Below, one piece after another: positions 3,792 through 41,020 of a stretch of 64,000 nt of DNA. The position numbers were made by a program, and so were the translations under genes. Below the pieces are notes generated by a model. It was not told the origin of the DNA and made no database searches. It saw only the letters and a program-made list of their open reading frames with translations. Positions within the stretch are counted from its first letter, which is position 1. Each line of letters begins with the position of its first letter. The DNA comes from Halomonas sp. Lineage in GTDB: Bacteria > Pseudomonadota > Gammaproteobacteria > Pseudomonadales > Halomonadaceae. The stretch lies in NCBI RefSeq assembly GCF_020832045.1, contig NZ_JAFIFK010000088.1, forward strand, positions 1-64,000. The letters run 5' to 3'.

Positions 3792-4637
3792 GTGAGTGAA
3801 GTCAAACGCAGAACGGCGGGGCGCCCGCCCGGTCCCGGCAAGAGCGCCAGCGGCCACAGTCAATCGCTGGTGCGCGGGCTCAATCTGCTCGAGCGCCTGG
3901 CCGCCACCCCGGGCGGACTGGCACTCTCCGAGCTGGCCGAGATGGTCGATCTGGCGCCCTCCACGACCCACCGGCTGCTGCAGGCCCTGCAAGGGCAAGG
4001 CTATATCACTCAAGATCCCGCCCTCGGCGTGTGGAAGATCGACGTCAAGACCTTCCGCATCGGCAACAGCTTTCTCGAAGCGCGTGATTTCGTTGCCACG
4101 AGCCGGCCTTTCCTGCGTCGGCTGACCGCCGAAACCGGCGAAACCGCTAACCTGGGCATTCGCGACGGCGCCACGGCCGTCTTTCTGGCCCAGAGCGAAT
4201 CCCCTCAGATGATGCGCATGATCACCCGCCTGGGCTCGCGCGCGCCGCTGCACGCCTCCGGGGTCGGCAAGGCGCTGATGGCCTGGCTGCCCGACGACGA
4301 GTTCGACCGGGTACTGGCCGAGCGCGGCCTCACGCGGGTCACCGAGAATACGCTGCATACTCCCCAGGCACTGCGCACCAACCTTGCCGAGGCACGCCGC
4401 CAGGGCTTTGCCTGTGACCGTGAAGAGCATGCCATCGGCCTGCACTGCGTGGCGGCCTGCCTGCACGACGAACATGGCGCTCCGCTGGCGGCCATTTCCG
4501 TTTCGGGCCCGGTGGCACGCATCCCCGAGTCTCGCCTGCTGGAGCTGGGCGAACTGGTCCGCAAGACCGCCGCGGAGATCACCGCCCGGCTGGGCGGACA
4601 CGTTCCCAGCCCCATCGAGGCCTCGGTGGAAGCATGA
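3792..4637 (+). CDS. IclR family transcriptional regulator
   Basis: A 281-residue regulator with an Arg/Lys-rich N-terminal tail, a winged helix-turn-helix (about 25-80; LALSELAEMVDLAPSTTHRL) and a C-terminal effector domain (about 95-270) with the family hallmark HASGVGKALMAWL. Translation starts at a GTG; no in-frame ATG gives the full HTH. IclR proteins usually control neighbouring catabolic genes and bind a pathway metabolite. The stop codon overlaps the start of the next gene (ATGA), so the two are translationally coupled. Plausible targets are the crotonase gene upstream or the transport and aromatic genes downstream; the sequence does not decide between them. Confidence 0.85.
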   Translation: MSEVKRRTAGRPPGPGKSASGHSQSLVRGLNLLERLAATPGGLALSELAEMVDLAPSTTHRLLQALQGQGYITQDPALGVWKIDVKTFRIGNSFLEARDFVATSRPFLRRLTAETGETANLGIRDGATAVFLAQSESPQMMRMITRLGSRAPLHASGVGKALMAWLPDDEFDRVLAERGLTRVTENTLHTPQALRTNLAEARRQGFACDREEHAIGLHCVAACLHDEHGAPLAAISVSGPVARIPESRLLELGELVRKTAAEITARLGGHVPSPIEASVEA

Positions 4638-5167: not shown

Positions 5168-5656
5168 CTAACCCTTGCTGTCACCGATCCGCTCCAACTG
5201 ACGCTCGAGCTTGCGCATCACATTGAGCAGATCGCGATATTCACCGGCGGTAAGCGTGGCCACCAGCTCCGCCTCCCAGGCTTGGGCCTCGGGTATCAGT
5301 TTGGTCAGCAGGCTCTGGCCGTCAGGGGTGAGGTGTAGATCCTGCTGACGCTGATCGTCGGGAGAGGGCGTACGGCTGATCAATCCGCGCTCCTCAAGCG
5401 ATTGAATTGCCCGAGACACGCGGGCCTTGTCCATGTTGGTGTAAGCACAGATCTTCTTCGCCGTCAGCTCATCGCAGTGGCTGAGCCAGGCGAGCACACG
5501 CCACTGGGCGATATTGAGCTGATAACGCGCCTCGTAGAGCTCCGCCAGCGCCTGGCTGATGCGATCGGCCAGGCTATTGAGCCGGTAGGGCAGAAACTGA
5601 TTCAGGTCCAGCTCAGGCTTGGTCGCCGGTTCCGCCTGGCTCTCGTCCATGTTCAT
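5168..5656 (-). CDS. MarR family transcriptional regulator
   Basis: A 162-residue winged-helix regulator. The dimerisation helices flank a DNA-binding core (about 50-120) with the HTH ELTAKKICAYTNMDKARVS and the wing SPDDQRQQDLHLT, which has the usual conserved D-R. MarR proteins bind short palindromes and release them when they bind an aromatic ligand. The gene follows dctM by about 30 bp and is probably the last gene of a dctPQM-marR transcript that diverges from the aromatic operon at 8985. It is therefore the best candidate to bind the 18-bp operator found at 8893, 22494 and 40418; that link is inference. Confidence 0.88.
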   Translation of the reverse strand: MNMDESQAEPATKPELDLNQFLPYRLNSLADRISQALAELYEARYQLNIAQWRVLAWLSHCDELTAKKICAYTNMDKARVSRAIQSLEERGLISRTPSPDDQRQQDLHLTPDGQSLLTKLIPEAQAWEAELVATLTAGEYRDLLNVMRKLERQLERIGDSKG

Positions 5657-5686: not shown

Positions 5687-6982
5687 TCAATAGAGCAGTT
5701 GCGGAAGGAACAGCACGATACCGGGGAATACCAGCACCAGCAACGCACGGGCCGTGCCCGCAACCCAGAACGGCGTCACGCCGCGGAAGATCGTCCCCGT
5801 GGAAACATCCGGCAGCACCGCGCGCAGAACGAAGACGTTCATGCCGACCGGCGGCGTGATCAGGCTGATCTCGATCACAATAACCACCAGGATGCCGAAC
5901 CACACCAGGTCGAAGCCGAGCCCCGCCACCACCGGGAAGAACACCGGCACGGTGAGTAGCATCATCGACATGCTCTCGAACACGCAGCCCAGCACCACGT
6001 AGATGGCGATGATCACCAGGATCACCACGAAGGGCGCCACGTTGAGCCCGTTGACCAGCGCCAGCAGATCGCCCGGCAGCCCGGCGCGGTTGATGAAGTT
6101 GGCGAATATCAGCGCGGTCAGCACCACGGCGAACAGCATGGCGGTGGTGCGGACGGTGTCCATCAGCACGTTCATCAGCACCTGCGGGGTGAGCGCACGC
6201 CGCAGCAGGGCGATGACGAAGGCGCCCATGGCGCCGATGCCCGCCGCCTCGGTGGGGGTGAACACGCCCAGGTAGATGCCGCCGATCACAAGCACGAACA
6301 GCGCCAGGGTGCTGCCCACGCTCTTCAGCGCCGCCATGCGCTCGGACCAGGGCACCCGCTCGCCGGCGGGGCCGGCCTCCGGGTCGCGCCACAGCACCCA
6401 TTTCACCGCCACCAGGTAGAGCACGATGCCCAGCATGCCGGGAATGAAGCCGGCAGCGAACAGCTCGCGAATGCTGGTCTCGGTAAGGATGCCGTAGATC
6501 ACCAGCATCACGCTGGGCGGGATCAGGATGCCAAGGGTGCCGCCGGCGGCAATGGAGGCCGAGGCCAGCGAGTCCTTGTAGCCGTACTTGCGCATCTGCG
6601 GCATCGCCACCCGCCCCATGGTGGCGCAGGTGGCGAGGCTCGAACCGCAGATGGCGCTGAAGCCGCCGCAGGCGACGATGGTGGCCATGGCCTGGCCGCC
6701 CTTGCGATGGCCGAGAAAACCGTTGGAGGCGCGGAACAGCGCATCCGACAGCCCCGCGTGGGAGACCAGGTTGCCCATCAGGATGAACAGCGGGATCACC
6801 GACAGGCCGTAGTCCATGGCGGTGTCCACCACCCGCCGTGCGGCCATGGCTTCGGCGGCGTTCCAGTTGCCGGTGAGATAATAGAAACCGCCGAAGCCGA
6901 CGATGCCCATGGCAAAGGCCAGCGGCACCCGCAGAAATGCCAGCAGCAGCAGGGCGGCGAACCCATACAGCGCTTCAGTCAT
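5687..6982 (-). CDS. dctM: TRAP transporter large permease DctM
   Basis: A 431-residue, strongly hydrophobic protein with about 12 membrane segments, the ion-coupled transport subunit of a tripartite ATP-independent periplasmic (TRAP) system. Family hallmarks include the start YGFAALLLLAFLRVPLAFAMG, the loop GGTLGILIPPSVMLVIYG and the late LITPPVGMNVFVL. It overlaps dctQ by eight bases, so synthesis of the two membrane subunits is coupled. TRAP systems import organic acids using a sodium gradient. Facing an aromatic catabolic operon, this one probably brings in a hydroxylated phenylacetate-like acid or a related compound; the substrate is inferred from context. Confidence 0.93.
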   Translation of the reverse strand: MTEALYGFAALLLLAFLRVPLAFAMGIVGFGGFYYLTGNWNAAEAMAARRVVDTAMDYGLSVIPLFILMGNLVSHAGLSDALFRASNGFLGHRKGGQAMATIVACGGFSAICGSSLATCATMGRVAMPQMRKYGYKDSLASASIAAGGTLGILIPPSVMLVIYGILTETSIRELFAAGFIPGMLGIVLYLVAVKWVLWRDPEAGPAGERVPWSERMAALKSVGSTLALFVLVIGGIYLGVFTPTEAAGIGAMGAFVIALLRRALTPQVLMNVLMDTVRTTAMLFAVVLTALIFANFINRAGLPGDLLALVNGLNVAPFVVILVIIAIYVVLGCVFESMSMMLLTVPVFFPVVAGLGFDLVWFGILVVIVIEISLITPPVGMNVFVLRAVLPDVSTGTIFRGVTPFWVAGTARALLVLVFPGIVLFLPQLLY

Positions 6983-7529
6983 TGTCGCCTCCCCGTTCTG
7001 TATGAGGGCTCAGCGGGCCGCCGCGCTGTAGCACTCCCACGCCCTCCAGCAGATAACCCACGGCGCGCAGCAGCGTCAGTGCGGCCGAGACGGCCAGCAT
7101 GATCGAAATCAGATAGATGAGATAACCGTTGGGGATGCGCAGGAACTCGGTCACATCGCCCCACTCCATGGCGCGGTTGCCCAACGCCCACACACGCCGC
7201 GCCATGATCCACAGCGCCCCGGTGACGATCAGATTGACCAGCACCTGGCGAATCCAGATCAGCCGCGCAGGGAACACACTGTCGAGCAGGTCGACGCTGA
7301 CGTGCTCCTCGCGCCAGCACACCACCGGCAGCGACAGGAATACCAGCGCGGCCAGCATCAATTGGGTCAGCTCGACGGTGCCGAGTATTGGCGAATTGAA
7401 GAAATAACGTCCGGTCACATCCGCCGTGGTCAGCAACATCATGGCGAAGAGGGTGGCGCCTGCCACCCCCTCCAGCGTCAGCTGCATGACACGGCCGACC
7501 CGCAACCAGAGCGTGGACGAGGTCGGCAT
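6975..7529 (-). CDS. dctQ: TRAP transporter small permease DctQ
   Basis: A 184-residue four-helix membrane protein (helices about 18-40, 55-75, 95-115, 135-160), the small subunit of a TRAP transporter. The start used is the ATG after a clear GGAGG site; the longer open frame reads back into dctP sequence and is not credible. It lies between dctP (27-bp gap) and dctM (8-bp overlap), in the usual P-Q-M order. DctQ holds DctM in place and helps dock the binding protein. The same permease pair may also serve the orphan binding protein encoded at 22583, since no second DctQM is present in this window. Confidence 0.92.
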   Translation of the reverse strand: MPTSSTLWLRVGRVMQLTLEGVAGATLFAMMLLTTADVTGRYFFNSPILGTVELTQLMLAALVFLSLPVVCWREEHVSVDLLDSVFPARLIWIRQVLVNLIVTGALWIMARRVWALGNRAMEWGDVTEFLRIPNGYLIYLISIMLAVSAALTLLRAVGYLLEGVGVLQRGGPLSPHTERGGDND

Positions 7530-7557
7530 GGTCAAGCCTCCAGGAAATACAAATAGG

Positions 7558-8613
7558 TTACTGACGGACCACGCGGCCGGCGATGCCTTCGCTCTCGGCG
7601 GCCATGGCCAGTTGTTCGCGGAAGTGCGCCAAGGCTGCCTCGGCGTCGACGCCGCGATCCGCCACGGCGGCGGTCCACTCGGCAATCAGCTCGTCGGTGA
7701 CACCGCGCAGCCGCTCGATATCCGCCTCGGGAGCCTGGGTGAAGGTGGCGCCGCGCTCCTGGCCGAACTCGACACCGCTCTCGTCGGAAACGTCCATCAT
7801 GTAGCCGAACAGGCGCGACAGGTGTTCACCGGACACACGCTCGATGGCCTCGCGGTCCTCGGCCGAGATCTGGTCCCAGAACATCGGGTTAATGACGATG
7901 GCGAAGCTGCCGCGGTAGAAGCCGCCGTCGACGGTCAGGGTGTGCGGCGCGACTTCCGCCACGCGGAAGCTGCGCAGGCTCTCCAGGGTCAGCATGGCGC
8001 CGTCGACTACGCCCTGAGACGCGGCTTCATAGACACCGGTAGGCGGCAGCGCCACGCCGGTCACGCGCATGGCATCGGCCAGGCCACTCATCACACCTCC
8101 ACCGACTCGCAGGCGCTTGCCGGCGAGCTCGTCGATCGAGTCGACCTGGGTGCGGGTGAAGATCTGGCCCGGACCATGCACCCCCATGGCCAGCACGTCG
8201 ACACCGCGATGTTCGTTGGCTTGAGCCAGGAACTCCTGGTGCGTATGCCAGTAGGCCGCGGCGGCATCTTCGGAAGAGAAGTCTTCGAAGGTGGGGAACT
8301 CGGGCAGCTGAGTGGCCAGGAAGCGCCCGGCCATATGGGCGTGGAAGATCCAGCTGGCGTCGGCAATGCCGTCGGCCACGATCTCCATCTGCGCGGCCGG
8401 CGGGCCCATGTCGTGCACGACCTCGACGGTCACACGGCCTTCGGTGGCCTCTTCGATCCACGCCTTCCAGGTGGGCCAGACGATGGTGTTGACGCCATGG
8501 TTAGGACCGCCCCAGGTGCTGACGGTAATGGCGGTCTGGGCCAGCGCAGGCGTGCCGAGGCTGAGACCGAACGCCGCCACGGCGCCGATCATGAGGCGAT
8601 TTTTGATTTTCAT
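7558..8613 (-). CDS. dctP: TRAP transporter substrate-binding protein DctP
   Basis: A 351-residue periplasmic binding protein. Residues 1-25 form a signal peptide ending near ALAQ. The mature protein has the two-lobe DctP fold, with conserved FEDFSSE, the Arg-containing KRLRVGGGV strand that normally clamps a substrate carboxylate, and GGFYRGSF. A strong AGGAG site precedes the ATG. It is the first gene of dctPQM-marR and diverges from the aromatic operon. It is very similar (about 60% by eye, with a 14-residue identical block starting GPNHGVN) to the binding protein at 22583, so the two probably recognise related acids. Confidence 0.93.
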   Translation of the reverse strand: MKIKNRLMIGAVAAFGLSLGTPALAQTAITVSTWGGPNHGVNTIVWPTWKAWIEEATEGRVTVEVVHDMGPPAAQMEIVADGIADASWIFHAHMAGRFLATQLPEFPTFEDFSSEDAAAAYWHTHQEFLAQANEHRGVDVLAMGVHGPGQIFTRTQVDSIDELAGKRLRVGGGVMSGLADAMRVTGVALPPTGVYEAASQGVVDGAMLTLESLRSFRVAEVAPHTLTVDGGFYRGSFAIVINPMFWDQISAEDREAIERVSGEHLSRLFGYMMDVSDESGVEFGQERGATFTQAPEADIERLRGVTDELIAEWTAAVADRGVDAEAALAHFREQLAMAAESEGIAGRVVRQ

Positions 8614-8984
8614 TGCGTGCTCCTAGGTCGTCACGGGGGCGTGCTTGCGCCACCATGTGTACCTACGTTGTTGTATGCGGCTGCACGCTCTGGGGTAGAT
8701 GGAAGCAGGAGCGCAACAGCCTGTTGTATCACGCTGTCACCTTGCCGCCAGTTACTCTCCCCTGCAACTAATTTGGTAATTAATGGCACTAGACTTAGGT
8801 AGTAAAAACGCCGAAAACCCATGATCCCAAGCAATTTTTAGACAATCGCCAGGCTATTTCCTTAGCAGAGTAAGTACGGTTTGCTGGACATATAGTTTCA
8901 ATAGCAACTAAGCTGCAACCATTCCGAACGCCCACCGTGACCGACTACGTCCAGCGTGACGCCCCTGACGACTCTGGAGGAACC
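8614..8984. other. divergent control region between dctP and the aromatic operon
   Basis: A 371-bp intergenic region with no convincing gene. It is AT-richer than its flanks. It holds the promoter for dctPQM-marR on the minus strand and, on the plus strand, a TATAGT -10-like element at 8891-8896 overlapping the palindrome at 8893-8910. GCAACTAA occurs at 8764 and again inside the palindrome at 8904, so a second half-site nearer dctP is possible. I saw no clear -35 for the plus-strand promoter. Confidence 0.5.
8893..8910 (+). promoter_or_regulatory. 18-bp operator, copy 1 (aromatic operon)
   Basis: TAGTTTCAATAGCAACTA, an imperfect inverted repeat overlapping the TATAGT -10-like element. It matches the operator in front of the VOC gene (40418) at 15 of 18 positions and the reverse complement of the copy at 22494 at 15 of 18. 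Its position over the -10 suggests repression. The MarR protein encoded at 5168 is the likely binder. Confidence 0.55.
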
Positions 8985-9953
8985 ATGAGCAAGAAGTTCG
9001 CTTCCCACGCCGATACCGAAGAGAAGCAGATCAGCTTCACCAAACTGGCCGAAGGCCTCTATGCCTATACCGCCGAAGGCGACCCCAACACCGGCGTGGT
9101 GATCGGCGACGATAGCGTGATGGTGATCGACACCCAGGCCACGCCGATCATGGCCCAGGACGTGATTCGCCGTATCCGCGAAGTCACCGACCTGCCGATC
9201 AAGCACGTGGTGATGACGCACTACCACGCCGTGCGCGTGCTCGGCGCTTCCGCCTACAAGGCCGAGAACATCTACGCCAGTCAGAATACCTACGACCTGA
9301 TCGTCGAACGCGGCCAGCAGGATTATGAATCCGAAGTCGGCCGCTTCCCACGCCTGTTCAAGGGTGTGGACTCGGTGCCCGGCCTGACCTGGCCCAACAT
9401 CGTGTTCCAGAAGGAGCTGACGGTGTTCATGGGCAAGCGCGAAGTCCGCATCATCCATCTCGGCCGCGGCCATACCAAGGGCGACACCATCGTCTGGCTG
9501 CCCGAGGAGAAGGTGATGTTCTCCGGCGATTTGGTCGAGTACGGCGCCACACCTTACACCGGCGATGCCTATCACGAGGACTGGCCCGCCACCCTCGACC
9601 GCCTGCAGGCCATGGCACCGCAGAAGCTGGTGCCGGGCCGCGGTGAGGCGCTGCAGTCACCCGAGCAGTGCCAGGAAGCGATCCAGGGCACCCGCGACTT
9701 TCTCAACGATATGTATGAGAGCGTCAAGGCAGGCAAGGCGGCAGGCAAGTCGCTCTCCGAGTGTTATGCCGAGACGTACGCCCTGCTCAAGCCGAAGTAC
9801 GGTCACTGGGTGATCTTTGATCACTGCGTACCGTTCGACATTACCCGCTGCTATGACGAGGCCGGCGGCGAGTACCCCGACCCGCGCATCTGGACCGCCG
9901 AGCGCGATACCCAGATGTGGCATTCGCTGCAGGAAGTCGTCGAGAACCAGTAA
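8985..9953 (+). CDS. MBL-fold protein with altered metal site
   Basis: A 322-residue metallo-beta-lactamase-fold protein and first gene of the aromatic operon. The start is the ATG after GGAGGAACC. In place of the usual HxHxDH it has H79-Y-H81-A-V83-R84, so both Zn2 ligands of that motif are missing. The Zn1 residues H163 (GRGHTKGD) and D182 (FSGDLVE) remain, and the final PGHG histidine is Arg219 (PGRG). Known MBL enzymes hydrolyse esters, lactones or thioesters or act as oxidoreductases. Here a one-metal hydrolase acting on an aromatic ester or lactone, or a stabilising partner of the hydroxylase, is possible but unproven. There is no signal peptide. Confidence 0.85.
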   Translation: MSKKFASHADTEEKQISFTKLAEGLYAYTAEGDPNTGVVIGDDSVMVIDTQATPIMAQDVIRRIREVTDLPIKHVVMTHYHAVRVLGASAYKAENIYASQNTYDLIVERGQQDYESEVGRFPRLFKGVDSVPGLTWPNIVFQKELTVFMGKREVRIIHLGRGHTKGDTIVWLPEEKVMFSGDLVEYGATPYTGDAYHEDWPATLDRLQAMAPQKLVPGRGEALQSPEQCQEAIQGTRDFLNDMYESVKAGKAAGKSLSECYAETYALLKPKYGHWVIFDHCVPFDITRCYDEAGGEYPDPRIWTAERDTQMWHSLQEVVENQ

Positions 9954-10032: not shown

Positions 10033-11754
10033 ATGCCAACTACCTACAACAATCCTGTCTATCCGTATCGGCGCGCGCCGGAGCTCGACCGTGACGACGT
10101 ACGCCACTGCCCGGTGGTGATCGTCGGCGCCGGCCCCACCGGCCTGGCCATGGCCATCGACCTGGCTCAGCAGGGCATCGAGAGTATCGTGCTCGATGAC
10201 AACAATACGGTCAGCGTCGGTTCGCGGGCGATCTGCTTCGCCAAGCGCACCCTGGAGATTCTCGACCGCCTGGGCTGTGCTCAGCCGATGGTGGAAAAGG
10301 GCGTGACCTGGCAGCACGGCCGGGTGTTCTTCCAGGAGCGCGAAGTCTACGACTTCAACCTGCTGCCGGAAGCGGGCCATCGCATGCCGGCCTTCATCAA
10401 CCTGCAGCAGTACTACTTCGAGGAGTATCTGGTCGATCGCGCAGACGAGCTAGCCGATCGCATCGACCTGCGCTGGAAGCACAAGGTGACCGAGGTCGAC
10501 AGCCGCCCCGAGCGCAGCGAAGTGCTGGTCAGCACCGAGGACGGCGACTACCGCCTCGCCTGCGACTACCTGCTGGTGGCCGACGGTGCCAACAGCAAGA
10601 TCCGCGACATGCTGGGCCTTGAGAGCCGCGGCCAGATCTTCCAGGACCGCTTCCTGATCGCCGACGTGATCATGAAGGCGGACTTCCCCACCGAACGCTG
10701 GTTCTGGTTCGACCCACCCTTCCATCGCAACCAGTCGGTACTGCTGCATCGCCAGCCGGACAACATCTGGCGCATCGACTTCCAGCTGGGCTGGGACGCC
10801 GACCCGGAGGAGGAGAAAAAGGAAGAGAACATTCGCCCCCGGGTGCAGGCAATGCTCGGCGAGGACGTGGAGTTCGAGCTGGAGTGGGCCAGCGTCTATA
10901 CCTTCCGCTGCCGCAAGATGGACGACTACACCCACCACCGGGTGTTCTTCATGGGCGACGCCGCCCATCAGGTCTCGCCCTTTGGCGCCCGCGGCGCCAA
11001 CGGTGCGCTGCAGAGCACCGAGAATCTGGCGTGGAAGCTGGCGCGGGTACTCAAGGGTCAGGCCCCCGAGGCGCTACTTGCTACCTATAACGACGAGCGC
11101 CAGCACGGTGCAGCCGAGAACATCCTCAACTCGACGCGTGCCACCGACTTTATCACGCCCAAGAGCCGCATCAGTCGGCTGTTTCGCGACAGCGTGCTGG
11201 AACTGGCCGAGCATTACCCCTTCGCTCGCAGTCTGGTCAACAGCGGCCGCCTCTCCATGCCGTGCCGCTACGACGGCTCGCCACTCAACGGCCACGAGGC
11301 CGAGGGCCTGCCGCTGGAACTACGCCCCGGCAGCCCGGCCAAGGACGCGCCGATCGACTTGGCCGGGCAGTGCACCTGGCTGCTCAACCAGCTGGGTGAC
11401 CGCTTCGTGCTGCTGCTCGACGGCCGCCTCGACAGCACGAGGGCCGAGTCGCTTGCCACCGAGCTACGTCCGCTGCTCGAGCAACAAGCCGATCTCGACC
11501 TGCTAGTCGTCGGGCCGGCACCCCACCCCCTGACCGAGCTGCCGCGCTGCCGCCAGATCGAGGACGTGGAGAACCTGGTTGGCGAGCGCTACGGCCTAAC
11601 CGGCGGCGTCGCCTACCTGATTCGCCCCGACCAGCACGTCAGCGCCCGATGGAACATCGTCTCAGCGACAGAGGTCGGCGCAGCACTGAAGCGCGCCTTG
11701 GGCGCTGATCTCGTTCCTTCCACCGTTCAGGGAGGCACCCATGCCACGGCTTGA
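10033..11754 (+). CDS. FAD-dependent aromatic hydroxylase, MhaA-like
   Basis: A 573-residue class A flavoprotein monooxygenase. Residues 32-37 form the FAD-binding GAGPTG, D184-G185 the FAD/NAD(P)H 'DG' motif, and G308-D309 (FFMGDAAHQVSPFGARG) the flavin-ribityl 'GD' motif; a thioredoxin-like C-terminal domain follows. The small DUF2783-like gene next door and the homogentisate genes downstream match the 3-hydroxyphenylacetate 6-hydroxylase system MhaA/MhaB of Pseudomonas putida, which makes homogentisate. The operon would then carry that acid to fumarate and acetoacetate. Other ortho/para-hydroxylations of phenolic acids (MhpA-like) cannot be excluded. A strong GGAGGAA site precedes the ATG, and the 3' end overlaps the next gene by 14 bp. 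Confidence 0.85.
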   Translation: MPTTYNNPVYPYRRAPELDRDDVRHCPVVIVGAGPTGLAMAIDLAQQGIESIVLDDNNTVSVGSRAICFAKRTLEILDRLGCAQPMVEKGVTWQHGRVFFQEREVYDFNLLPEAGHRMPAFINLQQYYFEEYLVDRADELADRIDLRWKHKVTEVDSRPERSEVLVSTEDGDYRLACDYLLVADGANSKIRDMLGLESRGQIFQDRFLIADVIMKADFPTERWFWFDPPFHRNQSVLLHRQPDNIWRIDFQLGWDADPEEEKKEENIRPRVQAMLGEDVEFELEWASVYTFRCRKMDDYTHHRVFFMGDAAHQVSPFGARGANGALQSTENLAWKLARVLKGQAPEALLATYNDERQHGAAENILNSTRATDFITPKSRISRLFRDSVLELAEHYPFARSLVNSGRLSMPCRYDGSPLNGHEAEGLPLELRPGSPAKDAPIDLAGQCTWLLNQLGDRFVLLLDGRLDSTRAESLATELRPLLEQQADLDLLVVGPAPHPLTELPRCRQIEDVENLVGERYGLTGGVAYLIRPDQHVSARWNIVSATEVGAALKRALGADLVPSTVQGGTHATA

Positions 11755-11965: not shown

Positions 11966-12036
11966 TCGCCGGCAGTATCGAGACCCGCTAAAGACAACAA
12001 GCCATCAACAGGACGTTGATCAAGAGGAACCCCGAC

Positions 12037-13347
12037 ATGACGACCCAAGCGCTCGAGACCATGAGCGGTTTTCGCAACCACTTCGCCACCGAGGCGCTGC
12101 CCGGCGCCCTGCCCGAGGGTCAGAACTCCCCGCAGCGCTGCGCCTACGGCCTGTACGCCGAGCAGCTCACCGGCTCGGCCTTTACCGCACCGCGTCACGC
12201 CAACCTGCGCAGCTGGCTCTACCGCGTTCGCCCCTCGGTAGTGCAGAGCGCCTATACGCCGCTGGAGAACCGCCGGGTGGCGACCTCGCCGCTGGCCAAG
12301 CCCGCCGCCGATCCCAACCAGATGCGCTGGGACCCGCTGCCGATTCCCGCCGAGCCCACCGACTTCATCGATGGGTTGCTGACCATCGCCGTCAACGGTG
12401 ACGCCGGCACCCAGGCCGGCTGCGGCGTGCATGTCTACGCCTTCAACCGCGACATGACCGAGCGCTTCTTCTACGACGCCGACGGCGAACTGCTGATCGT
12501 GCCGCAGCATGGCACCCTGCGCCTGCGCACCGAAATGGGCGAATTGCAGGTCAAGGGCGGCGAGATCGCCGTGATCCCCCGCGGCATCAAGTTCCAAGTG
12601 CGCCTGGCGGAAGGTTCCGATGCCGCTCGCGGCTATATCTGCGAGAACTACGGCAGCCCTCTGGAGCTGCCCGGCCTGGGGCCCATCGGCGCCAACGGCC
12701 TGGCCAACCCGCGAGATTTCCTCTCCCCCGTGGCGGCCTACGAGGATGTGCAGGGCGACTTCGAGCTGGTGGCCAAGTTCTCCGGACGTTTCTGGACCAC
12801 CAAGCTCGGCCATTCGCCGCTCGACGTGGTGGCCTGGCACGGCAACTACGCGCCCTACAAGTACGACCTGGCTAACTTCAACACCATCAACACGGTGAGC
12901 TTCGATCACCCTGATCCCTCGATCTTCACCGTGCTGACCTCTCCCTCCGACACCCCGGGCATGGCCAATATCGATTTCGTTATCTTCCCGCCGCGCTGGA
13001 TGGTGGCCGAGAACACCTTCCGCCCGCCCTACTTCCATCGCAACCTGATGAGCGAGTTCATGGGCCTGATCCACGGCGAGTACGACGCCAAGGCCGAGGG
13101 CTTCCTGCCCGGCGGGGCCAGCCTGCACAACTGCATGTCTCCCCACGGCCCCGACGCCGAGACCTTCGAGAAGGCGTCCAATGCCGAGCTGACACCGCAG
13201 CGCCTGGATGCGACCCTGGCCTTCATGTTCGAGAGCCGCTATGTCTTCCATCCGACCGAGGCGGCACTGAACGCGGACATTCGCCAGCGCGATTACGTCG
13301 ATGTGTGGTCGACCCTGCGCTCGCATTTCGATCCGAAGCAGCCTTGA
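12037..13347 (+). CDS. hmgA: homogentisate 1,2-dioxygenase
   Basis: A 436-residue non-haem iron dioxygenase that opens the homogentisate ring to maleylacetoacetate. The cupin iron ligands fall at H334 (PYFHRN), E340 (MSEFMG) and H370 (SPHGPD), one position from the human enzyme's H335/E341/H371; the N-terminal [21 protein letters not shown] is also diagnostic. The start is the ATG eight bases after AAGAGGAA; an ATC-AAG extension just upstream is less likely. It is central to the operon: the upstream hydroxylase should make its substrate and the next two genes use its product. The stop codon sits inside an 18-bp tandem repeat. Confidence 0.97.
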
Positions 13348-13447: not shown

Positions 13448-14467
13448 ATGAAACTCGCTACTCTGAAAAAAGGCCGCGACGGCGAACTGCTGGTGGTCTC
13501 CCGCGACCTGAGCCAGGCCGTTTCCGCCGCCGACATCGCCGCCACTCTTCAGCAGGCGATCGAGAACTGGGCTGAGGTGAGCCCCAAACTGGAAGCGCGC
13601 TATGCCGAGCTCAACGACGGCTGCGCCGAGGGTGCCTTCGAACTCGACCAAAGCAAGCTGCACTCGCCACTGCCGCGCAGCTACCACTGGGCCGACGGCT
13701 CCGCCTACCTCAATCACGTCAAGCTGGTGCGCCAGGCACGCAATGCCGAAATGCCGGAAACCTTCTGGACCGACCCGCTGATGTACCAGGGGGGCGGCGA
13801 CCGTTTCCTCGCCCCCACCGAGGACATCGAGGCGGTCAGCGAGGAGCACGGCATCGACTTCGAAGGCGAGATCGCGGTGATCACCGACGACGTGCCCATG
13901 GCGGTGACCCCGGAGCAGGCCGCCGGCCACATCAAGCTGGTCATGCTGGTCAACGACGTCAGTCTACGCGGCTTGATCCCCGGCGAGCTGGCCAAGGGCT
14001 TCGGCTTCTTCCAGGCCAAGCCGGCCTCGAGCTTCTCACCGGTCTGCGTCACCCCGGACGAACTGGGCGATGCCTGGAAGGACGGCAAGGTGCACCTGCC
14101 GTTGACCGTACACCTGAACGGCGAGAAGTTCGGCGAGCCGGACGCCGGCCCCGATATGATCTTCAGCTTCCCGCAGCTGGTGGCGCATGCGGCCAAGACC
14201 CGCTACCTGGGCGCCGGTGCGGTGGTCGGCTCGGGCACCGTCTCCAACCCCGACCCCGACGGCGGCCCCGGAAAGCCGATTGCCGACGGCGGTGTGGGCT
14301 ACAGCTGCCTGGCCGAGGTGCGCATGGTGGAGCAGATCCTGCACGGCGCGGCGAAAACCTCTTTCATGCGCTTCGGCGACCGGGTGCGCATCGAGATGTT
14401 CGACCGTAACGGCAACAGCATTTTCGGCGCCATCGACCAGCAGGTGGTGAAGTACCAGCCCAAATAA
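13448..14467 (+). CDS. fahA: fumarylacetoacetate hydrolase
   Basis: A 339-residue FAH-family enzyme expected to split fumarylacetoacetate into fumarate and acetoacetate, the last step of the pathway. It has the family metal-binding acidic cluster in the IDFEGEIAVITDDVP region, the later MLVNDVSLRG element, and GSGTVSNP near the catalytic pocket. It is the shorter bacterial type, about 80 residues shorter than animal FAH. The start is an ATG after GAAAGGA. About 100 bp separates it from hmgA, and maiA follows within 20 bp on the same strand. Confidence 0.92.
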   Translation: MKLATLKKGRDGELLVVSRDLSQAVSAADIAATLQQAIENWAEVSPKLEARYAELNDGCAEGAFELDQSKLHSPLPRSYHWADGSAYLNHVKLVRQARNAEMPETFWTDPLMYQGGGDRFLAPTEDIEAVSEEHGIDFEGEIAVITDDVPMAVTPEQAAGHIKLVMLVNDVSLRGLIPGELAKGFGFFQAKPASSFSPVCVTPDELGDAWKDGKVHLPLTVHLNGEKFGEPDAGPDMIFSFPQLVAHAAKTRYLGAGAVVGSGTVSNPDPDGGPGKPIADGGVGYSCLAEVRMVEQILHGAAKTSFMRFGDRVRIEMFDRNGNSIFGAIDQQVVKYQPK

Positions 14468-14486: not shown

Positions 14487-15131
14487 ATGACTACGCTGTA
14501 CGGCTATTTCCGCTCCTCGGCGGCGTATCGAGTGCGCATCGCGCTCAACCTGAAGGGGCTCGACTACGCCCAAACCGCCGTCAATCTGGTCAAGGGAGAG
14601 CAGCGGGGCGAGGATAACCTCGCCCGCAACCCCCAGGGGCTGGTGCCGGTGCTGGAAACCGACGACGGCACCCAGTTGACCCAGTCGCTGGCGATCTGCG
14701 AATACCTCGACGAGTGTTATCCCGAACCGGCGCTGCTGCCGGCGGATGCCGAAGGCCGCGCTCGGGTGCGCTCGCTGGCTCAGCTCGTCGCTTGTGAGAT
14801 CCACCCGCTCAACAACCTCAAAGTGCTAAAGTACCTGGTGGGAGAGCTCAAGCTGGACGAGGAGGCCAAACTCGGCTGGTACCGCCACTGGATCGCCGAA
14901 GGCTTCACCGCCCTGGAGGCAAGGCTGACGGGAGAGGCCGCCACCGGCGAGTTCTGCCACGGCGATAGCCCAACCCTGGCGGATATTTGCCTGGTGCCCC
15001 AGGTGTTCAATGCCGAACGCTTCGAGTGCGAGCTTTCGGCGTATCCGACGATTCGACGCATCGCCGAGCGTTGTCGCGAGCTCGAAGCCTTCACCAAGGC
15101 CGCACCGGGCCAACAGCCCGACGCCGGTTGA
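14487..15131 (+). CDS. maiA: maleylacetoacetate isomerase
   Basis: A 214-residue zeta-class glutathione transferase that turns maleylacetoacetate into fumarylacetoacetate using glutathione. The N-terminal active-site segment is YFRSSAAYRVRIALNLKGL: the Ser pair is kept, while the Cys of the animal SSCSWRVRIAL motif is Ala, as I recall for many bacterial forms. NPQGLVPVLE and SLAICEYLDE bind glutathione, and an all-helical domain follows. AGGAGGAA precedes the ATG. It is the last catabolic gene of the operon and is followed by a long hairpin. Confidence 0.94.
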   Translation: MTTLYGYFRSSAAYRVRIALNLKGLDYAQTAVNLVKGEQRGEDNLARNPQGLVPVLETDDGTQLTQSLAICEYLDECYPEPALLPADAEGRARVRSLAQLVACEIHPLNNLKVLKYLVGELKLDEEAKLGWYRHWIAEGFTALEARLTGEAATGEFCHGDSPTLADICLVPQVFNAERFECELSAYPTIRRIAERCRELEAFTKAAPGQQPDAG

Positions 15132-21993: not shown

Positions 21994-22419
21994 TCAGGCG
22001 GTTTCGGCCAGCCGCTCGAAGGCCGCCGCATTGGGGCAGAAGGCGCGACACTCGTCGACCCCCGCCTCGCGACGCATGGCGCCCCAGCAATAGCCGGCCA
22101 CCGGGCAGGCGTTGCAGTTGCCGCGCAGGCTGGGATAGCTGACGTGGTCGGAGACGCAGGCCTGCTCGATACCGAAGCGCTGAAGCATGGCCGGCATTAG
22201 GGTATCGGCAGGTACGAAGGCGCGATAACCACTGCGGTCGAGATGTCTGGCGACCTCACGTTCGAAGGCAGGCTCCAAAGGCGTTTTCAGATCCTGAAGC
22301 ATCTCGCTGTAGACCTTGGGCGATTCCGCCTCGATCTCGCGGACAAGCCGTCGCGTGGTGGCGCGGTAGCTGCCTTCGCAAAGACGCTCCCACCATGTCG
22401 TCTTGGGTGCCTGATTCAT
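21994..22419 (-). CDS. Cys-rich DUF6455-like protein, paralogue B
   Basis: A 141-residue protein with a basic helical N-terminus and a C-terminal Cys motif: RFGIEQACVSD, then CNACPVAGYCWGAMRR and ECRAFCPNAAAFE. This parallels paralogue A at 19906, about half identical over the last 60 residues by eye. The start follows AGGGAGA; the longer frame upstream is not credible. About 75 bp upstream is the third copy of the 18-bp operator found at the aromatic operon and the VOC gene, so it may belong to that regulon. Function is unknown; metal or Fe-S binding by the Cys cluster is a reasonable guess. Confidence 0.7.
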   Translation of the reverse strand: MNQAPKTTWWERLCEGSYRATTRRLVREIEAESPKVYSEMLQDLKTPLEPAFEREVARHLDRSGYRAFVPADTLMPAMLQRFGIEQACVSDHVSYPSLRGNCNACPVAGYCWGAMRREAGVDECRAFCPNAAAFERLAETA

Positions 22420-22493
22420 GACGTTTCTCCCTTCCGGTGCGTTTTCAGCAGTATCGACTCTCTCCCCTTGGGCAGCATTGACTGAGGTCAAAA

Positions 22494-22511
22494 TAGTTGC
22501 ATTTGAAACAA
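22494..22511 (-). promoter_or_regulatory. 18-bp operator, copy 2 (DUF6455-B gene)
   Basis: Read on the minus strand, toward the DUF6455-B gene, it is TTGTTTCAAATGCAACTA. It matches the VOC operator at 16 of 18 positions and the aromatic-operon copy at 15 of 18. TATTTT, a -10-like element, overlaps its upstream edge exactly as at the VOC gene. It lies between the terminator of the binding-protein gene and the DUF6455-B start. Confidence 0.55.
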
Positions 22512-22582: not shown

Positions 22583-23644
22583 TCAGGCTTCGGGGTCGAT
22601 GACCTCGTCCTGCGACAGCCCCTCATCGCCCTCGGCGGCGCCGAGCTGCTCGAAGAAGTAAGCGTGAGCGGCTTCGCCATCGACACCCTTGGCACCGGCC
22701 GCTTCCTTCCACTCCCCCGGCAGAGCGGCGGCCAGCTGCTGGAAGCGTTCGATCTCCTCGGCCGGCAGCTCGATAAAGGTGTTGCCCTGTTGCTCGGCGA
22801 ATTCAATGCCGCGCACGTCGACCACATCCATCATGTAGCCGAACAGGCGCGAGAGCTTTTCGCCTGAGACGCTTTCGATCGCCTCACGGTCTTCCTCAGA
22901 AAGCGACGCCCAGGTATCGGGGTTCATCACCAGCGAGAAGCTGCCACGATAGAAGCCACCCGGCATCTGCACCGTGTAGGGCAGCACCTCGGCCAGACGG
23001 AAGCTCTTGAGGCCCTCCAGCGTCAGCATGGCGCCATCGATGACACCCTGGGTCGCCGCCTCGTAGGTGCTGGCTGGTGGGAGCGCCACGCCGGTCAGCG
23101 CCAGGGCGTTGGAGATATCACCCATCACGCCGCCGCCGATGCGCACGCGTTTGTTGCGAAGGTCGTCGAGGCTGTCGATGGATTGGTTGAGGAACATCGA
23201 ACCCGGACCATGCACGCCCACACCGATTACTTCGACGCCGCGATGCTCGCCGGCATCGGCGAAGTACTCGTTATGCGTGCGCCAATAAGCCACCGAGGCA
23301 GCTTCGGAAGAGAAGTCCTCGAAGGTGGGTAGCTCGGGCAGCTTGGTCAGCTCGAAGCGACCCGGCATCAGGCCATGGAACAGCCAAGTGACATCGGCCA
23401 CGCCGTCGGCGATCAACTCCATCTGGGCGTTGGGCGGCCCCATGTCGTGGACCACGTTGACGGTAACGCGGCCCTGGGTGGCTTCTTCCACCCAGCTCGC
23501 CCAGGTCGGCCAGACAATGGTGTTGACGCCATGGTTGGGACCCGCCCAGGTGCTGACCTGCAGTTCGGTAGCAGCAGCGCCCTGGAAGGCACCGAAAGAG
23601 AGCGCAGTTAGTGTCGTCAGTGTCGCGAGCTTGTGTATTTTCAT
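22583..23644 (-). CDS. orphan TRAP substrate-binding protein (DctP paralogue)
   Basis: A 353-residue periplasmic binding protein with a signal peptide (residues 1-25). It closely resembles the dctP product at 7558: identical GPNHGVNTIVWPTW, FEDFSSE, VHGPG, GGFYRGSF and SRLFGYMMDV, about 60% overall. The conserved NKRVRIGGG Arg should hold a carboxylate. The ATG follows GAGGAA. No DctQ or DctM is adjacent; instead it lies 104 bp downstream of the P450 gene on the same strand, probably in one operon. It may lend a second specificity to the dctQM permease at 5.7-7.5 kb, or use a distant one. A terminator-like hairpin follows. Confidence 0.9.
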   Translation of the reverse strand: MKIHKLATLTTLTALSFGAFQGAAATELQVSTWAGPNHGVNTIVWPTWASWVEEATQGRVTVNVVHDMGPPNAQMELIADGVADVTWLFHGLMPGRFELTKLPELPTFEDFSSEAASVAYWRTHNEYFADAGEHRGVEVIGVGVHGPGSMFLNQSIDSLDDLRNKRVRIGGGVMGDISNALALTGVALPPASTYEAATQGVIDGAMLTLEGLKSFRLAEVLPYTVQMPGGFYRGSFSLVMNPDTWASLSEEDREAIESVSGEKLSRLFGYMMDVVDVRGIEFAEQQGNTFIELPAEEIERFQQLAAALPGEWKEAAGAKGVDGEAAHAYFFEQLGAAEGDEGLSQDEVIDPEA

Positions 23645-23748
23645 TGTCGTTCCTCGTGAGTCCCGGTTGTCAGGGTTGGCGTAGGTCTTGTTGATTGTAA
23701 AAAAGTGAGCGTGCGATTTAACGCCGTATGGCCGAGCGCAGCCACTTT

Positions 23749-26085
23749 TTAGAGGGCCAGCACCAGCTTCTTGCCCTTGGCGCGTGAGCAACAGCTCATC
23801 AAGCGGTCCTGCCCGGCGCGTTCCGCGGCGGTTAACACCTTGTCACGGTGATCGATCTCGCCCTCTATCACCTCGACCTGGCAGGAGCCGCACAGCCCTT
23901 CCTCACAGTCGCTGGGCACATCGACGCCGGCGGTACGCAGCGCCTGCAGCAAGGTGCGATCCGGCGCTACCTCGACGACGAATTCGGAGTCGGCGAGTTC
24001 GACCTGGAAAGCGTGCTCCTTATCAGGATCGAGCAGCGCACCCTCGGCAGTGAAATGCTCCACGTGCAGGCTGCCCGCCGGCCAGTGAGTGGTGCCGGCC
24101 TCCAGCGCCGTGAGCAGCCGCTCCGGACCACAGGCGTAGAGCAGCGTGCCCGCGTCCGGCTCGGCAAGCAGGCAGGCGAGGTCGAGCCGCTGGTTTTCAT
24201 CTTTGGCATAACGCCGCAGCGCCTCGCCGTGGTCATGCTCGATCCGCTCGATGAAAGCCATACTGCCGCGGGAACGACCGGCGTAATGCAGCTCATAGGA
24301 CTTGCCCAGGCGCTTGAGCCGGTCGGCCATGGCCATGATCGGGGTGATGCCGATGCCCCCGGCGATCAACAGGTAGTGCTGCGCCGTTTCATCGAGGCGG
24401 AAGTGGTTCTTGGGCCCGCGCACGCGCAGCTCGACTCCCTCGCGCACCGCCTCATGCATCCAACGTGAGCCGCCACGACCGGCCTCCTCGTTCAGCACAG
24501 CAATGCGCCAGTCGCCGGACTCCGCCGGGCCGCATAGCGAATACTTGCGCGCCTCGCCGTTGGGCAGCACCACGTCGAGATGCGAGCCTGGCGTCCACGC
24601 CGGTAGATTCCGTCCGGCGGGGTCGACCAAGGTCACACCGAGTACGCCATCCGCCTCTGGCTCGGCACGAGTCACGCTAACTCGCCGCACGATACCGTGG
24701 GCGACCGGTGCTCCTACCGGGAAGTCGCGCTGGGCAGAGCGCACCCTTGGGTCGCGGCGTTCCGGGTTCTGCGCCGGGTCCCAGCGCACCCACAGGGCTT
24801 CGGGGCCACGGAAGGAGGTGTTGGGCAGAAAGGTGAACGCCTGTTCCTCGAGTTCCAGGTGCGGCAGGCGCCGTGTGAACTCCTCAAGGAAGATGCGCAT
24901 CTCCATGCGCCCCAGGTTCTTGCCCATGCACTGGTGGCTGCCGTAGCCGAAGGTCAGGTGGTCGACGGCATTATCGCGATAGATGTCGAGTTCGTCGGGA
25001 TTCTCGAAATGGGCCGGATCGTGATTGGCCGAGGCCGTCACCATCAGGATCTTGCCGCCCTCGGGGATGGCAACGCCACCCACCTCGACATCACGGGTGG
25101 CGATGCGCCGCCAGGCCACTACCGAGCCGGAATGACGCAGACACTCCTCCGCCGCAGCGGGGATCAGCTCTGGGTTATCGCATAGCTCGGCCCATACGGA
25201 AGGCCGTGAAAGCAGCTGGCGGAAAGCGTTGGCGGTGGCCAGGGCGGTGGTCTCGTGGGCAGCGACGATAATTGCCATCATCATCGAATGCAGGTAGTTG
25301 TCGGTCACCACGTCCGGCTTCTGGCGATTCTTCTCGATCATGTCGTACATCCAGCCGTGGCCGCTGGAGTGATTCTGCATCTTCTTGAGCACCTGACCCG
25401 AATACTGCCAGAACTTGCCGACACCCTCGGCCACCTCGACCTGCTGCTCGGGCGACGGGCGTCCCCAGGTATTCAGGGTATGGGCCACCGAGAAGCGGCG
25501 CAGCTGCTCCATGTCCTCCTCGGGTACGCCGAGGAAGTGCAGCGCGACCGTGAGCGGGACTTCCCAGAACATCTCGCCAACCAGGTCGGCGCGGCCATGG
25601 TCGATGATGGCGTCGAGCTTCTCACGTACCAGGCGTCGCACCATCGGTGCGTGGGCTTCCAGCGCTTCGGGAGAGAAGGCCTCGAGCAGCTCGCGTCGAC
25701 GGGCCATATGGGCCGGCTCGTCCTCGTTCACCAGTGTGCGGTTCATGCCGTAGTCATAGCGCTCGAGCACCGCCTGGGCCTCTCGGCTTGCCGGAGTGAT
25801 CTTCTCCAGGGCGATCGAGGGCGAAAAGGTAAGGTTATCGCGGAAGATCGCCTTGATATCGGCGTAGCGGCTCACGACCCAATAGCCGAGCTTGGGGCTG
25901 TAGAACACCGGCTCCTGATCGCGAGACCAGCGCAGCGCCTCGGCGGGGTCGATCTGGTAAGGGCGGTCAAAGGGGTCGAAGGTTGCCGCCTGGGGCGATA
26001 CGGGACACCCGTTGGGTGCCAGGGGCCGCTCTTCGGGGTTATGAAAAGGGCAGCCGCTTGCGGTGCGCCGAGTCGTTGAAGTCAT
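23749..26085 (-). CDS. self-sufficient cytochrome P450 (CYP116B-type fusion)
   Basis: A 778-residue class VII P450. Residues 1-435 are the haem domain: I-helix AAHETT (275-280), ExxR at E314-R317, haem loop FGYGSHQCMGKNLGR with Cys386. About 455-690 is an FMN/NADH phthalate-dioxygenase-type reductase (RKYSLCGP; AGGIGITPIMAMADRL). The C-terminus is a [2Fe-2S] ferredoxin with Cys727, 732, 735 and 765 or 766. Order and length match CYP116B enzymes such as P450RhF, which hydroxylate or dealkylate aromatic and aliphatic compounds with no separate redox partner. It heads a probable operon with an orphan TRAP binding protein and diverges from an IclR gene. The physiological substrate is unknown, but a carboxylated compound taken up by TRAP is likely. 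Confidence 0.93.
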   Translation of the reverse strand: MTSTTRRTASGCPFHNPEERPLAPNGCPVSPQAATFDPFDRPYQIDPAEALRWSRDQEPVFYSPKLGYWVVSRYADIKAIFRDNLTFSPSIALEKITPASREAQAVLERYDYGMNRTLVNEDEPAHMARRRELLEAFSPEALEAHAPMVRRLVREKLDAIIDHGRADLVGEMFWEVPLTVALHFLGVPEEDMEQLRRFSVAHTLNTWGRPSPEQQVEVAEGVGKFWQYSGQVLKKMQNHSSGHGWMYDMIEKNRQKPDVVTDNYLHSMMMAIIVAAHETTALATANAFRQLLSRPSVWAELCDNPELIPAAAEECLRHSGSVVAWRRIATRDVEVGGVAIPEGGKILMVTASANHDPAHFENPDELDIYRDNAVDHLTFGYGSHQCMGKNLGRMEMRIFLEEFTRRLPHLELEEQAFTFLPNTSFRGPEALWVRWDPAQNPERRDPRVRSAQRDFPVGAPVAHGIVRRVSVTRAEPEADGVLGVTLVDPAGRNLPAWTPGSHLDVVLPNGEARKYSLCGPAESGDWRIAVLNEEAGRGGSRWMHEAVREGVELRVRGPKNHFRLDETAQHYLLIAGGIGITPIMAMADRLKRLGKSYELHYAGRSRGSMAFIERIEHDHGEALRRYAKDENQRLDLACLLAEPDAGTLLYACGPERLLTALEAGTTHWPAGSLHVEHFTAEGALLDPDKEHAFQVELADSEFVVEVAPDRTLLQALRTAGVDVPSDCEEGLCGSCQVEVIEGEIDHRDKVLTAAERAGQDRLMSCCSRAKGKKLVLAL

Positions 26086-26176
26086 GATGCCCCCGCTGAG
26101 CTGTCGTGTTTCGTGGCTTTCATGGGCTGTGCTTTTGTTGGCTGTATTTTGATTGTTACTTTTATCGCACATACAA

Positions 26177-26191
26177 TGTCGTTTAACGACA
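26177..26191. promoter_or_regulatory. perfect 15-bp palindrome, likely IclR operator
   Basis: TGTCGTTTAACGACA: 7-bp arms around one central T. It lies in the roughly 200-bp region between the divergent P450 and IclR genes, 92 bp from the P450 start and 94 bp from the IclR start, so it can control both. The size fits IclR-family boxes. No second copy was noticed in this window. Confidence 0.6.
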
Positions 26192-26284
26192 CAGGCCTGA
26201 ACATAGGCAGTTTCGACGGTGACGTCAATCCCCGTCGGCTGCGCTACCATGCCCAGCCATTATCGACTCGAGGAATTCCGTTCG

Positions 26285-26962
26285 ATGGCCACCACCCTGC
26301 AAACACTGGATCGCGGCCTGCGCGCGCTCGAGATCATCGCCGAGCACGCCAAGGGGGTTAGCGTTGCCGAGTTAGCCGAGCAGCTGGACGTGCATCGCGC
26401 AATCGCCTACCGCATCGTCACCACCCTGGAGCAGCACGGGCTGGTGGTTCGCTCCGCCGAGGGCCCGCTGCGCCTGGGCGCGGGCATTTCGCTGCTGGCC
26501 TCACACTTCGAACCACAGCTGAGTGCGGTAGCCCAGCCGCTACTGCAAGCGCTGGCCAAGGCCACTCGGGCCACCGCCTTCATCTCGGTGGCCCAAGGCG
26601 AAGAGTGCGTGGTGATCCGGGTCGCGGAACCGGACGAAGGATTGCTGCGGGTCGGCTACAGGGTCGGCAGCCGCCATCCGCTGACGCAGGGTGCGGCGGG
26701 TATCGCCATCCTTGCCGGACGTGCGCCAAGCGAAGCCGACAACGAAGCGGTTCGCCAGGCGCGCAGCGATGGCTACAGCCTGACCCGCGGACAGCTTCAG
26801 CGCGGTGCCGTGGGAGTGGCCAGCCCCGCTGCCACCTCGCATTTCCGGACCGGCATCGAGGCCTGCGTTGGCGTAGTGGCAATGGACGACCTCGACACTG
26901 AACGGGCGATACGCGAAGTGAAGGCTCACGCACTACAGCTGGCGGAGCTGGTAGGCCGCTAA
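26285..26962 (+). CDS. IclR family transcriptional regulator
   Basis: A 225-residue IclR protein: winged HTH at about 8-60 (VSVAELAEQLDVHRAIAYRIVTT), effector domain about 75-220 with the family's HPLTQGAAGIAIL segment. It is at the short end of the family. The ATG at 26285 is about 10 bp after GAGGAA; two upstream in-frame ATGs (26219, 26252) are possible but would add residues unlike IclR. Its divergence from the self-sufficient P450 and the palindrome at 26177 make it the probable regulator of the P450-dctP operon and of itself. Whether it activates or represses is not visible. Confidence 0.88.
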   Translation: MATTLQTLDRGLRALEIIAEHAKGVSVAELAEQLDVHRAIAYRIVTTLEQHGLVVRSAEGPLRLGAGISLLASHFEPQLSAVAQPLLQALAKATRATAFISVAQGEECVVIRVAEPDEGLLRVGYRVGSRHPLTQGAAGIAILAGRAPSEADNEAVRQARSDGYSLTRGQLQRGAVGVASPAATSHFRTGIEACVGVVAMDDLDTERAIREVKAHALQLAELVGR

Positions 26963-40387: not shown

Positions 40388-40417
40388 TTGACAGCGGCAA
40401 GCGAACGCCTCTATTTT
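40388..40417 (+). promoter_or_regulatory. sigma-70 promoter of the VOC gene
   Basis: TTGACA (40388-40393) and TATTTT (40412-40417) with an 18-bp spacer. The -10 overlaps the left end of the palindromic operator. It serves the VOC gene at 40475. Confidence 0.65.
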
Positions 40418-40437
40418 TAGTTTCAAATGAAACTAAA
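40416..40437 (+). promoter_or_regulatory. operator, copy 3: perfect 10-bp inverted repeat (VOC gene)
   Basis: TTTAGTTTCA and TGAAACTAAA are separated by AA. The core TAGTTTCAAATGAAACTA (40418-40435) matches the copy at 22494 at 16 of 18 positions and the one at 8893 at 15 of 18. It covers the -10 edge and likely start point, so a bound protein should repress. This is the most symmetric of the three copies. Confidence 0.65.
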
Positions 40438-40474: not shown

Positions 40475-41020
40475 ATGATCGAGATTCAGCAGATTCACCA
40501 CGTCGCCTACCGCTGTCGCGATGCCAAGGAGACCGTTGAGTGGTATCAGGACAAGCTGAACATGGAGTTCCTGGTCGCCATCGCCGAGGACCGCGTGCCA
40601 TCCACCAAGGCCCCGGACCCCTACATGCATCTCTTCCTTGATGCCGGCAACGGCAACATTCTGGCCTTCTTCGAGCTACCCAACTCGCCGGAAATGGGCC
40701 GTGATCCCAACACACCGGAATGGGTCCAGCACATCGCCTTCCGGGTCGCCGACGAAGCGGCGCTGATGGCGGCCAAGGAGCAGCTTGAAAGCAAGGGCAT
40801 AGAAGTCGTCGGTCCTACCGAACACGGCATTATCCGTTCGATCTACTTCTTCGATCCCAACGGCCACCGCCTGGAGCTGACCTATGTGAAGGGCACGCCG
40901 GAGCAGATGAAGCAGCTCAAGGAAGTGGCACCGGCCATGGTCGAGGAGTGGTCGAAGACCAAGCGCGCGCCCAAGCATGCCGCCTGGCTGCATGAAGAGG
41001 AGTTCCAGGCGCCGAACTGA
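40475..41020 (+). CDS. VOC (glyoxalase/extradiol dioxygenase) family protein
   Basis: A 181-residue vicinal-oxygen-chelate protein made of two beta-alpha-beta-beta-beta modules. Likely metal ligands are the His in IQQIHHVAYRCRD, the His in WVQHIAFRVAD, and the Glu in GHRLELTYV; a fourth may lie in the LAFFELPN strand. The family includes glyoxalases, extradiol dioxygenases and isomerases. ATG 40475 was chosen because an in-frame ATG at 40427 lies inside the operator and has no ribosome-binding site. The shared 18-bp operator links it to the aromatic operon at 8985, so it probably acts on a compound from that pathway, but no specific reaction is visible. Confidence 0.82.
   Translation: MIEIQQIHHVAYRCRDAKETVEWYQDKLNMEFLVAIAEDRVPSTKAPDPYMHLFLDAGNGNILAFFELPNSPEMGRDPNTPEWVQHIAFRVADEAALMAAKEQLESKGIEVVGPTEHGIIRSIYFFDPNGHRLELTYVKGTPEQMKQLKEVAPAMVEEWSKTKRAPKHAAWLHEEEFQAPN

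Follow-up and report, generated by a model that had tools for sequence, protein, structure and literature searches.

Homogentisate is an intermediate in the degradation of tyrosine and hydroxyphenylacetate. HmgS, a MarR-family protein, was predicted as the local regulator of hmgAB in Alteromonadales/Pseudoalteromonadales, the prediction covering 3 genomes, 6 sites and 9 genes (PMC5343134, excerpt). HmgR of Pseudomonas putida belongs to the IclR family and represses hmgABC locally, homogentisate acting as the anti-repressor (PMC5343134, excerpt). HpaR, of the MarR family, represses the homoprotocatechuate pathway (PMC7180172, excerpt). In Cupriavidus pinatubonensis, the CYP116B P450 OhpA, the transporter subunit OhpT and the IclR regulator OhpR feed 2-hydroxyphenylacetate into homogentisate (PMC8449657, excerpt).

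Herein, we describe a stretch of 64,000 nucleotides (the window; bases 1-64000 of the 117.6-kb contig C39) from a 4.08-Mb genome. As far as the excerpt on HmgS goes, the locus resembles that system: a MarR-family gene neighbours hmg genes, and a conserved operator is found at 72/73 homogentisate operon promoters with up to two core mismatches and at 63/73 with up to one. It differs in that the present regulon is mainly Halomonas-like and adds a VOC gene, a Cys-rich gene, possibly ompW and an MBL/FAD-monooxygenase operon, the two systems being compared by description and not by motif or sequence. Unlike HmgR as excerpted, the candidate regulator here is a MarR and not an IclR protein, and the neighbouring IclR protein is BhcR-like; HmgR is a functional analogue only. 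The excerpted HpaR shares with the candidate the role of a MarR repressor of aromatic catabolism but acts on another pathway, and our MarR protein scored 51.7 bits against the NCBIfam HpaR model (TIGR02337), below the cut-off of 121.2. Between the second and third operators, positions 22583-26962 hold a CYP116B-like self-sufficient P450 (best PDB match 6kbh), a DctP protein and an IclR regulator. These genes resemble OhpA/OhpT/OhpR as excerpted, the transporter protein here being DctP; the contig scans revealed no operator of this kind upstream of the P450. Judged by titles and abstract starts, no report of a MarR regulator of homogentisate genes besides PMC5343134 was found among the matches listed. 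A MarR regulator, HmgS, was thus predicted earlier (PMC5343134, excerpt), and what appears to be new is the breadth of the regulon, the place of the VOC gene and a promoter with a neighbouring FNR-like site. The features of the window are as follows.

5168..5656, minus: marR, candidate repressor (HmgS-like); Pfam MarR_2, E 2.4e-17
5687..8613, minus: dctPQM, genes of a TRAP transporter, co-oriented with marR and 5' of it
8753..8770, minus: weaker operator-like element TAGTTGCAGGGGAGAGTA facing dctPQM-marR, with one good half-site
8885..8890, plus: likely -35 of the homogentisate operon, TGGACA
8893..8910, plus: operator 1, TAGTTTCAATAGCAACTA, in the -35/-10 spacer of the homogentisate operon promoter
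8909..8914, plus: likely -10, TAAGCT, overlapping the end of operator 1
8985..9953, plus: MBL-fold hydrolase, first gene of the operon
10033..11754, plus: FAD-dependent monooxygenase, PRK08132 family
12016..13347, plus: hmgA, homogentisate 1,2-dioxygenase; TIGR01015 687.6 bits, cut-off 510.75
13448..14467, plus: fumarylacetoacetate hydrolase-family gene ("fahA"); PF01557 E 1.7e-34
14487..15131, plus: maiA, maleylacetoacetate isomerase; TIGR01262 300.8 bits, cut-off 171.05
21994..22419, minus: Cys-rich gene, second target; distantly related to DUF6455
22450..22455, minus: likely -10 of the Cys-rich gene, GATACT
22478..22491, minus: TTGACCTCAGTCAA, FNR/ANR/DNR-like site, its start 20 bp from that of operator 2
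22494..22511, minus: operator 2, TTGTTTCAAATGCAACTA, 5' of the Cys-rich gene
40388..40393, plus: likely -35 of the VOC promoter, TTGACA
40412..40417, plus: likely -10 of the VOC promoter, TATTTT
40418..40435, plus: operator 3, TAGTTTCAAATGAAACTA, directly 3' of the likely -10
40475..41020, plus: VOC/glyoxalase-superfamily gene, third target

We propose that the palindrome shared by operators 1 to 3 is the operator of the MarR protein encoded at 5168-5656 and acts on at least three promoters, a reading to which we give a probability of roughly 0.8. The initial annotation had placed three related 18-bp sites at these positions and strands, and all three were found there, agreeing pairwise at 15-16 of 18 positions (3, 3 and 2 mismatches). 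They are intergenic, as it had claimed, lying outside the surrounding annotated or homology-supported genes. Their strands were also as described, but the shared orientation to each gene carries little weight, the site being palindromic, with the 18-bp consensus TAGTTTC-N4-GAAACTA and the half-site TAGTT[T/G][C/T]; the central N4 of the window sites is AATA, AAAT and AAAT. The view that three such coincidences are hard to explain by chance was borne out by 100 dinucleotide shuffles of the window, which gave zero matches at up to three mismatches, and by the rarity of matches to permuted half-sites. Judged by the comparisons below, the three sites are conserved regulatory sites.

The operon downstream of operator 1 was originally annotated as an aromatic pathway. 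Since hmgA and maiA both exceed their equivalog cut-offs, it is, by these assignments, specified as homogentisate catabolism; the NCBIfam equivalog search with the "fahA" gene gave none above cut-off. The FAD monooxygenase probably feeds the pathway, from what would be a hydroxyphenylacetate. We retained 80 of the 284 loci found around marR, dropped 7 without the operon, and in the remaining 73 sought the site in the 350 bp preceding the first operon gene. Among the 63 promoters with at most one core mismatch, 47 matched exactly, and the same search with 19 permuted half-sites matched 0.47 promoters on average and never more than 1 of 73. When two mismatches were allowed, the permuted half-sites averaged 8.3 and reached 20 at most. 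All nine two-mismatch sites are TAGTTGT-N4-GAAACTA or -CTG, and the sole promoter of the 73 in which no site was found is that of an Aquisalimonas MAG (L164).

The only training data for the matrix were the homogentisate-operon sites from other genomes, 63 in all and 41 of them distinct. On this matrix, the window sites scored 35.0, 29.5 and 26.0 and ranked 1, 2 and 3 in the 117.6-kb contig; operator 1 is no independent test, since the training set includes a relative with identical letters, and operators 2 and 3 are independent tests of a matrix built from homogentisate sites. A clear gap separates the three from the next matches in the contig, at 18.1 (inside a gene) and 17.5 (parS-like). 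The initial annotation had asked for conservation at orthologous promoters, and the site was kept in 63/73 (72/73 with two mismatches) of the operon promoters, 30/30 of the Cys-rich promoters and 18/18 of the VOC promoters. The conservation at three promoters and the recovery of the other two by the homogentisate-trained matrix support one shared operator joining the three targets in one predicted regulon.

VOC orthologs were present in 18 of 90 genomes, and the operator was kept in 18/18 of these promoters in the genus. Outside the genus, none of four VOC relatives (L043-L046; a fifth, L047, was left out) had a site directly upstream. In two other families (G025 and G033), hpd and a fahA-like gene flank the VOC gene. 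This arrangement indicates that the VOC gene belongs to tyrosine catabolism and, as read from gene order, is a tyrosine-pathway gene in other families. Among these genomes outside the genus, only G025 showed a site, located upstream of hpd; G033 has the same hpd-VOC-fahA order, yet no site was found. The best PDB sequence match of the VOC protein is 9u42, 'Glyoxalase'. Across operator 3, a glutathione synthetase gene (39337-40338, minus strand) is divergent from the VOC gene.

The Cys-rich protein scored 15.6 bits against Pfam DUF6455 (PF20056), below the cut-off of 23.7 and outside the family by that measure, and 17/21 aligned members reached E<=1 with this model. Structure prediction gave a confident helical model (pLDDT 90.7), and the model had no PDB fold match with E<=0.001. 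Orthologs matched in 47 of 90 genomes, and promoters were taken from the best 30; the operator was present with at most one core mismatch in 30/30 of these. The homogentisate-trained matrix gave these 30 sites scores of 15.9-35.1, and the 95th percentile for 300 random 350-bp contig windows was -1.7. The FNR-like site was found at 27/30 of the promoters by the strict pattern and at 28/30 as TTG...TCAA.

The promoter layouts differ from some of those first proposed, in which a -10 element was assigned to TATAGT, TATTTT and TATTTT at the operon, the Cys-rich gene and the VOC gene, respectively. In the operon, a -35 TGGACA is kept in 37/43 MBL-type orthologous promoters with the site. It places the -10 at TAAGCT, for which relatives have TATGCT, TATCCT or the like, and leaves the operator within the spacer. 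At the Cys-rich gene, TATTTT is unconserved, and GATACT is present in 30/30 orthologs, 56-57 bp from the operator start. Two of the three proposed -10 elements therefore look wrong on this alignment evidence. The third is plausible: in the VOC promoter, TTGACA lies upstream of TATTTT with an 18-bp spacer, and TTGAC is kept in 18/18 orthologs (TTGACA in 15). The predicted start of the Cys-rich transcript, taken from GATACT, puts operator 2 about 60 bp upstream and the FNR-like site (TTGAT-N4-ATCAA-like) at about -41, near the class II position of -41.5.

A similar arrangement lies outside the window at the ompW promoter (C63:72774-72791; L005:1501-1518), where an operator-like palindrome is directly followed by an FNR-like site. 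Its score of 22.56 makes it the fourth-best genome place (50 of 58 places scored). By eye, most of 14 relatives keep a related palindrome followed by an FNR-like sequence, weaker in many, and in G006 there was no alignment at the palindrome. The ompW promoter is a possible further target of the regulon.

The MarR gene had been named as the natural candidate repressor, and by linkage and co-occurrence it is the best candidate. The protein passed the MarR family test (PF12802, 63.3 bits, cut-off 27; PF01047, 54 bits, cut-off 24.6), and its closest named relatives, among the 80 loci kept of 284, are Billgrantia species, so the host probably belongs to Billgrantia or stands close to it. No record title in these loci names Alteromonas or Pseudoalteromonas; Marinobacter, which accounts for 3 of them, is classed under Pseudomonadales. 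In loci with marR directly facing hmgA, one or two operators lie between the genes, the pairs being 37-40 bp apart. In G025, from another family of the same order, a MarR of 38% identity lies opposite hpd-VOC-fahA, with TAGTTTCATTTGCAACTA between them. The genomes compared are nearly all close relatives. Among them, marR was present in 18/18 VOC genomes and 42/72 others (Fisher p 2.4e-4, which ignores relatedness), in 30/35 genus genomes with a close Cys-rich ortholog, and in 7/7 with such an ortholog among the 16 genomes in one or two contigs. In a 38-genome set, 11 genus relatives had an operator match and an intact marR, and G012 had a match without a detected marR; 7/18 marR-bearing genus relatives had no match at strict 2 mismatches. 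The weaker element TAGTTGCAGGGGAGAGTA upstream of dctPQM-marR keeps TAGTTGC in 11 aligned sequences and scored just 5.07 on the matrix; autoregulation of marR through this element is possible.

A different division of labour would have a second factor with a similar palindrome acting on the Cys-rich and ompW promoters, leaving MarR with the homogentisate and VOC promoters only. We consider this unlikely, though it deserves weight. These two promoters differ from the others in layout, with the FNR-like site adjoining the palindrome, and the ompW palindromes mostly have the half-site TAGTTGY, with 6/14 scoring at least 17.8. Furthermore, five genomes have the Cys-rich site without a detected marR. 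In every one of these five, however, the contig breaks off within dctQ, a short way upstream of the homogentisate operon, and the absence of marR is therefore unusable as a dependence test; the gene may lie in the assembly gap. The operator was present upstream of the operon in 4/5 of them, and none was found in G079 under the filter used. In five loci (L095, L102, L104, L121 and L128), marR is flanked by two similar copies of dctPQM, and such twin copies may break draft assemblies and hide marR. The scores of the Cys-rich sites on a matrix trained on homogentisate sites, all far above the random 95th percentile, also speak against a separate factor at that gene.

The sites could instead be bound by a different regulator, for example the IclR-family protein whose gene neighbours marR (3792-4637), with MarR controlling something else. 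HmgR, which controls hmgABC in Pseudomonas putida, is of the IclR type (PMC5343134, excerpt), and an iclR match was found in 34/73 operon-holding loci. The other 39/73 had no iclR match within the fetched stretch (up to about 5 kb on each side of marR), and in those the site is mostly kept, marR being present by construction. Distant lineages, moreover, have the site between marR and hmgA or hpd, and the IclR protein scored 338.9 against the BhcR cut-off of 350, which points to another pathway. We regard control by this protein as improbable and retain MarR as the candidate.

Sequence comparison shows where the sites lie, that they are conserved, how the promoters are laid out and that the site is linked to marR; from this we infer MarR binding, repression and an inducer as follows. 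A MarR dimer would occupy at least three promoters: between the -35 and -10 in the homogentisate operon, just past the -10 and over the start point in the VOC gene, and some 60 bp before the likely start, beside the site of an FNR-like activator, in the Cys-rich gene. With no inducer, MarR would hold the homogentisate operon and VOC promoters shut; release would be brought about by an intermediate, with homogentisate or a hydroxyphenylacetate the likeliest. A further proposal, which we hold tentatively at slightly less than even odds, is that the aromatic sensor MarR is wired into oxygen control via the FNR-like site, spaced almost constantly from the operator, at the Cys-rich gene and perhaps ompW, the operon and the VOC gene answering to the aromatic signal alone. 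If so, aromatic and oxygen signals would be combined at one promoter (that of the Cys-rich gene, perhaps also that of ompW), and homogentisate metabolism would take in a VOC enzyme and a Cys-rich protein that is so far uncharacterised. The predicted regulon itself makes of three isolated motifs a defined, testable unit of homogentisate catabolism in Halomonas-like bacteria and assigns a pathway to two uncharacterised genes, VOC and Cys-rich. It also points to a type of promoter where aromatic-acid and oxygen sensors may sit side by side.

Two parS-like copies, GTTTCACGTGAAAC, lie on the same contig at C39:75608 and 76238 (L016); we take this core with a central CG to be parS, the ParB site, and the copies suggest that the contig is origin-proximal. 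The operators could then be degenerate parS sites bound by ParB, since their core differs from GTTTCACGTGAAAC mainly at the central bases and the contig is probably origin-proximal. We find this very improbable and rejected a parS origin of the motif: the window sites are without the central CG and did not qualify as parS, the operators track three particular promoters at fixed promoter positions, and the parS-like copies scored 17.5 and 9.0 compared with 26-35 for the operators. A chance likeness of AT-rich promoter DNA can be practically dismissed, being contradicted by the shuffles, the permuted half-sites and the retention of the sites in blocks amid otherwise diverged intergenic DNA.

The genome-wide scan consisted of mismatch pattern searches, the matrix being applied to the contig and to 50 of 58 pattern places. 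The two-mismatch pattern search of the genome gave these 58 places and 52 for a reversed control pattern, and most of the two-mismatch places are thus due to chance. A two-mismatch search of relatives matched 15/38 genomes (own included), with 5 for the reversed control. Six places in the whole genome lie within three mismatches of TAGTTTCAAATGAAACTA, four of them on the contig of the window. One of these four, C39:89277 (L003:1501-1518), is the palindrome TCGTTTCAAATGAAACGA within a csgD-like gene and was set aside as an operator for its position inside a gene. Equal frequency inside genes had been named in advance as evidence against the motif; this copy is genic, while the three top-scoring sites of the contig are intergenic. 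Further places in the genome are C68:70481, with a score of 17.65, and two with an exact core, C23:51199 and C35:42250.
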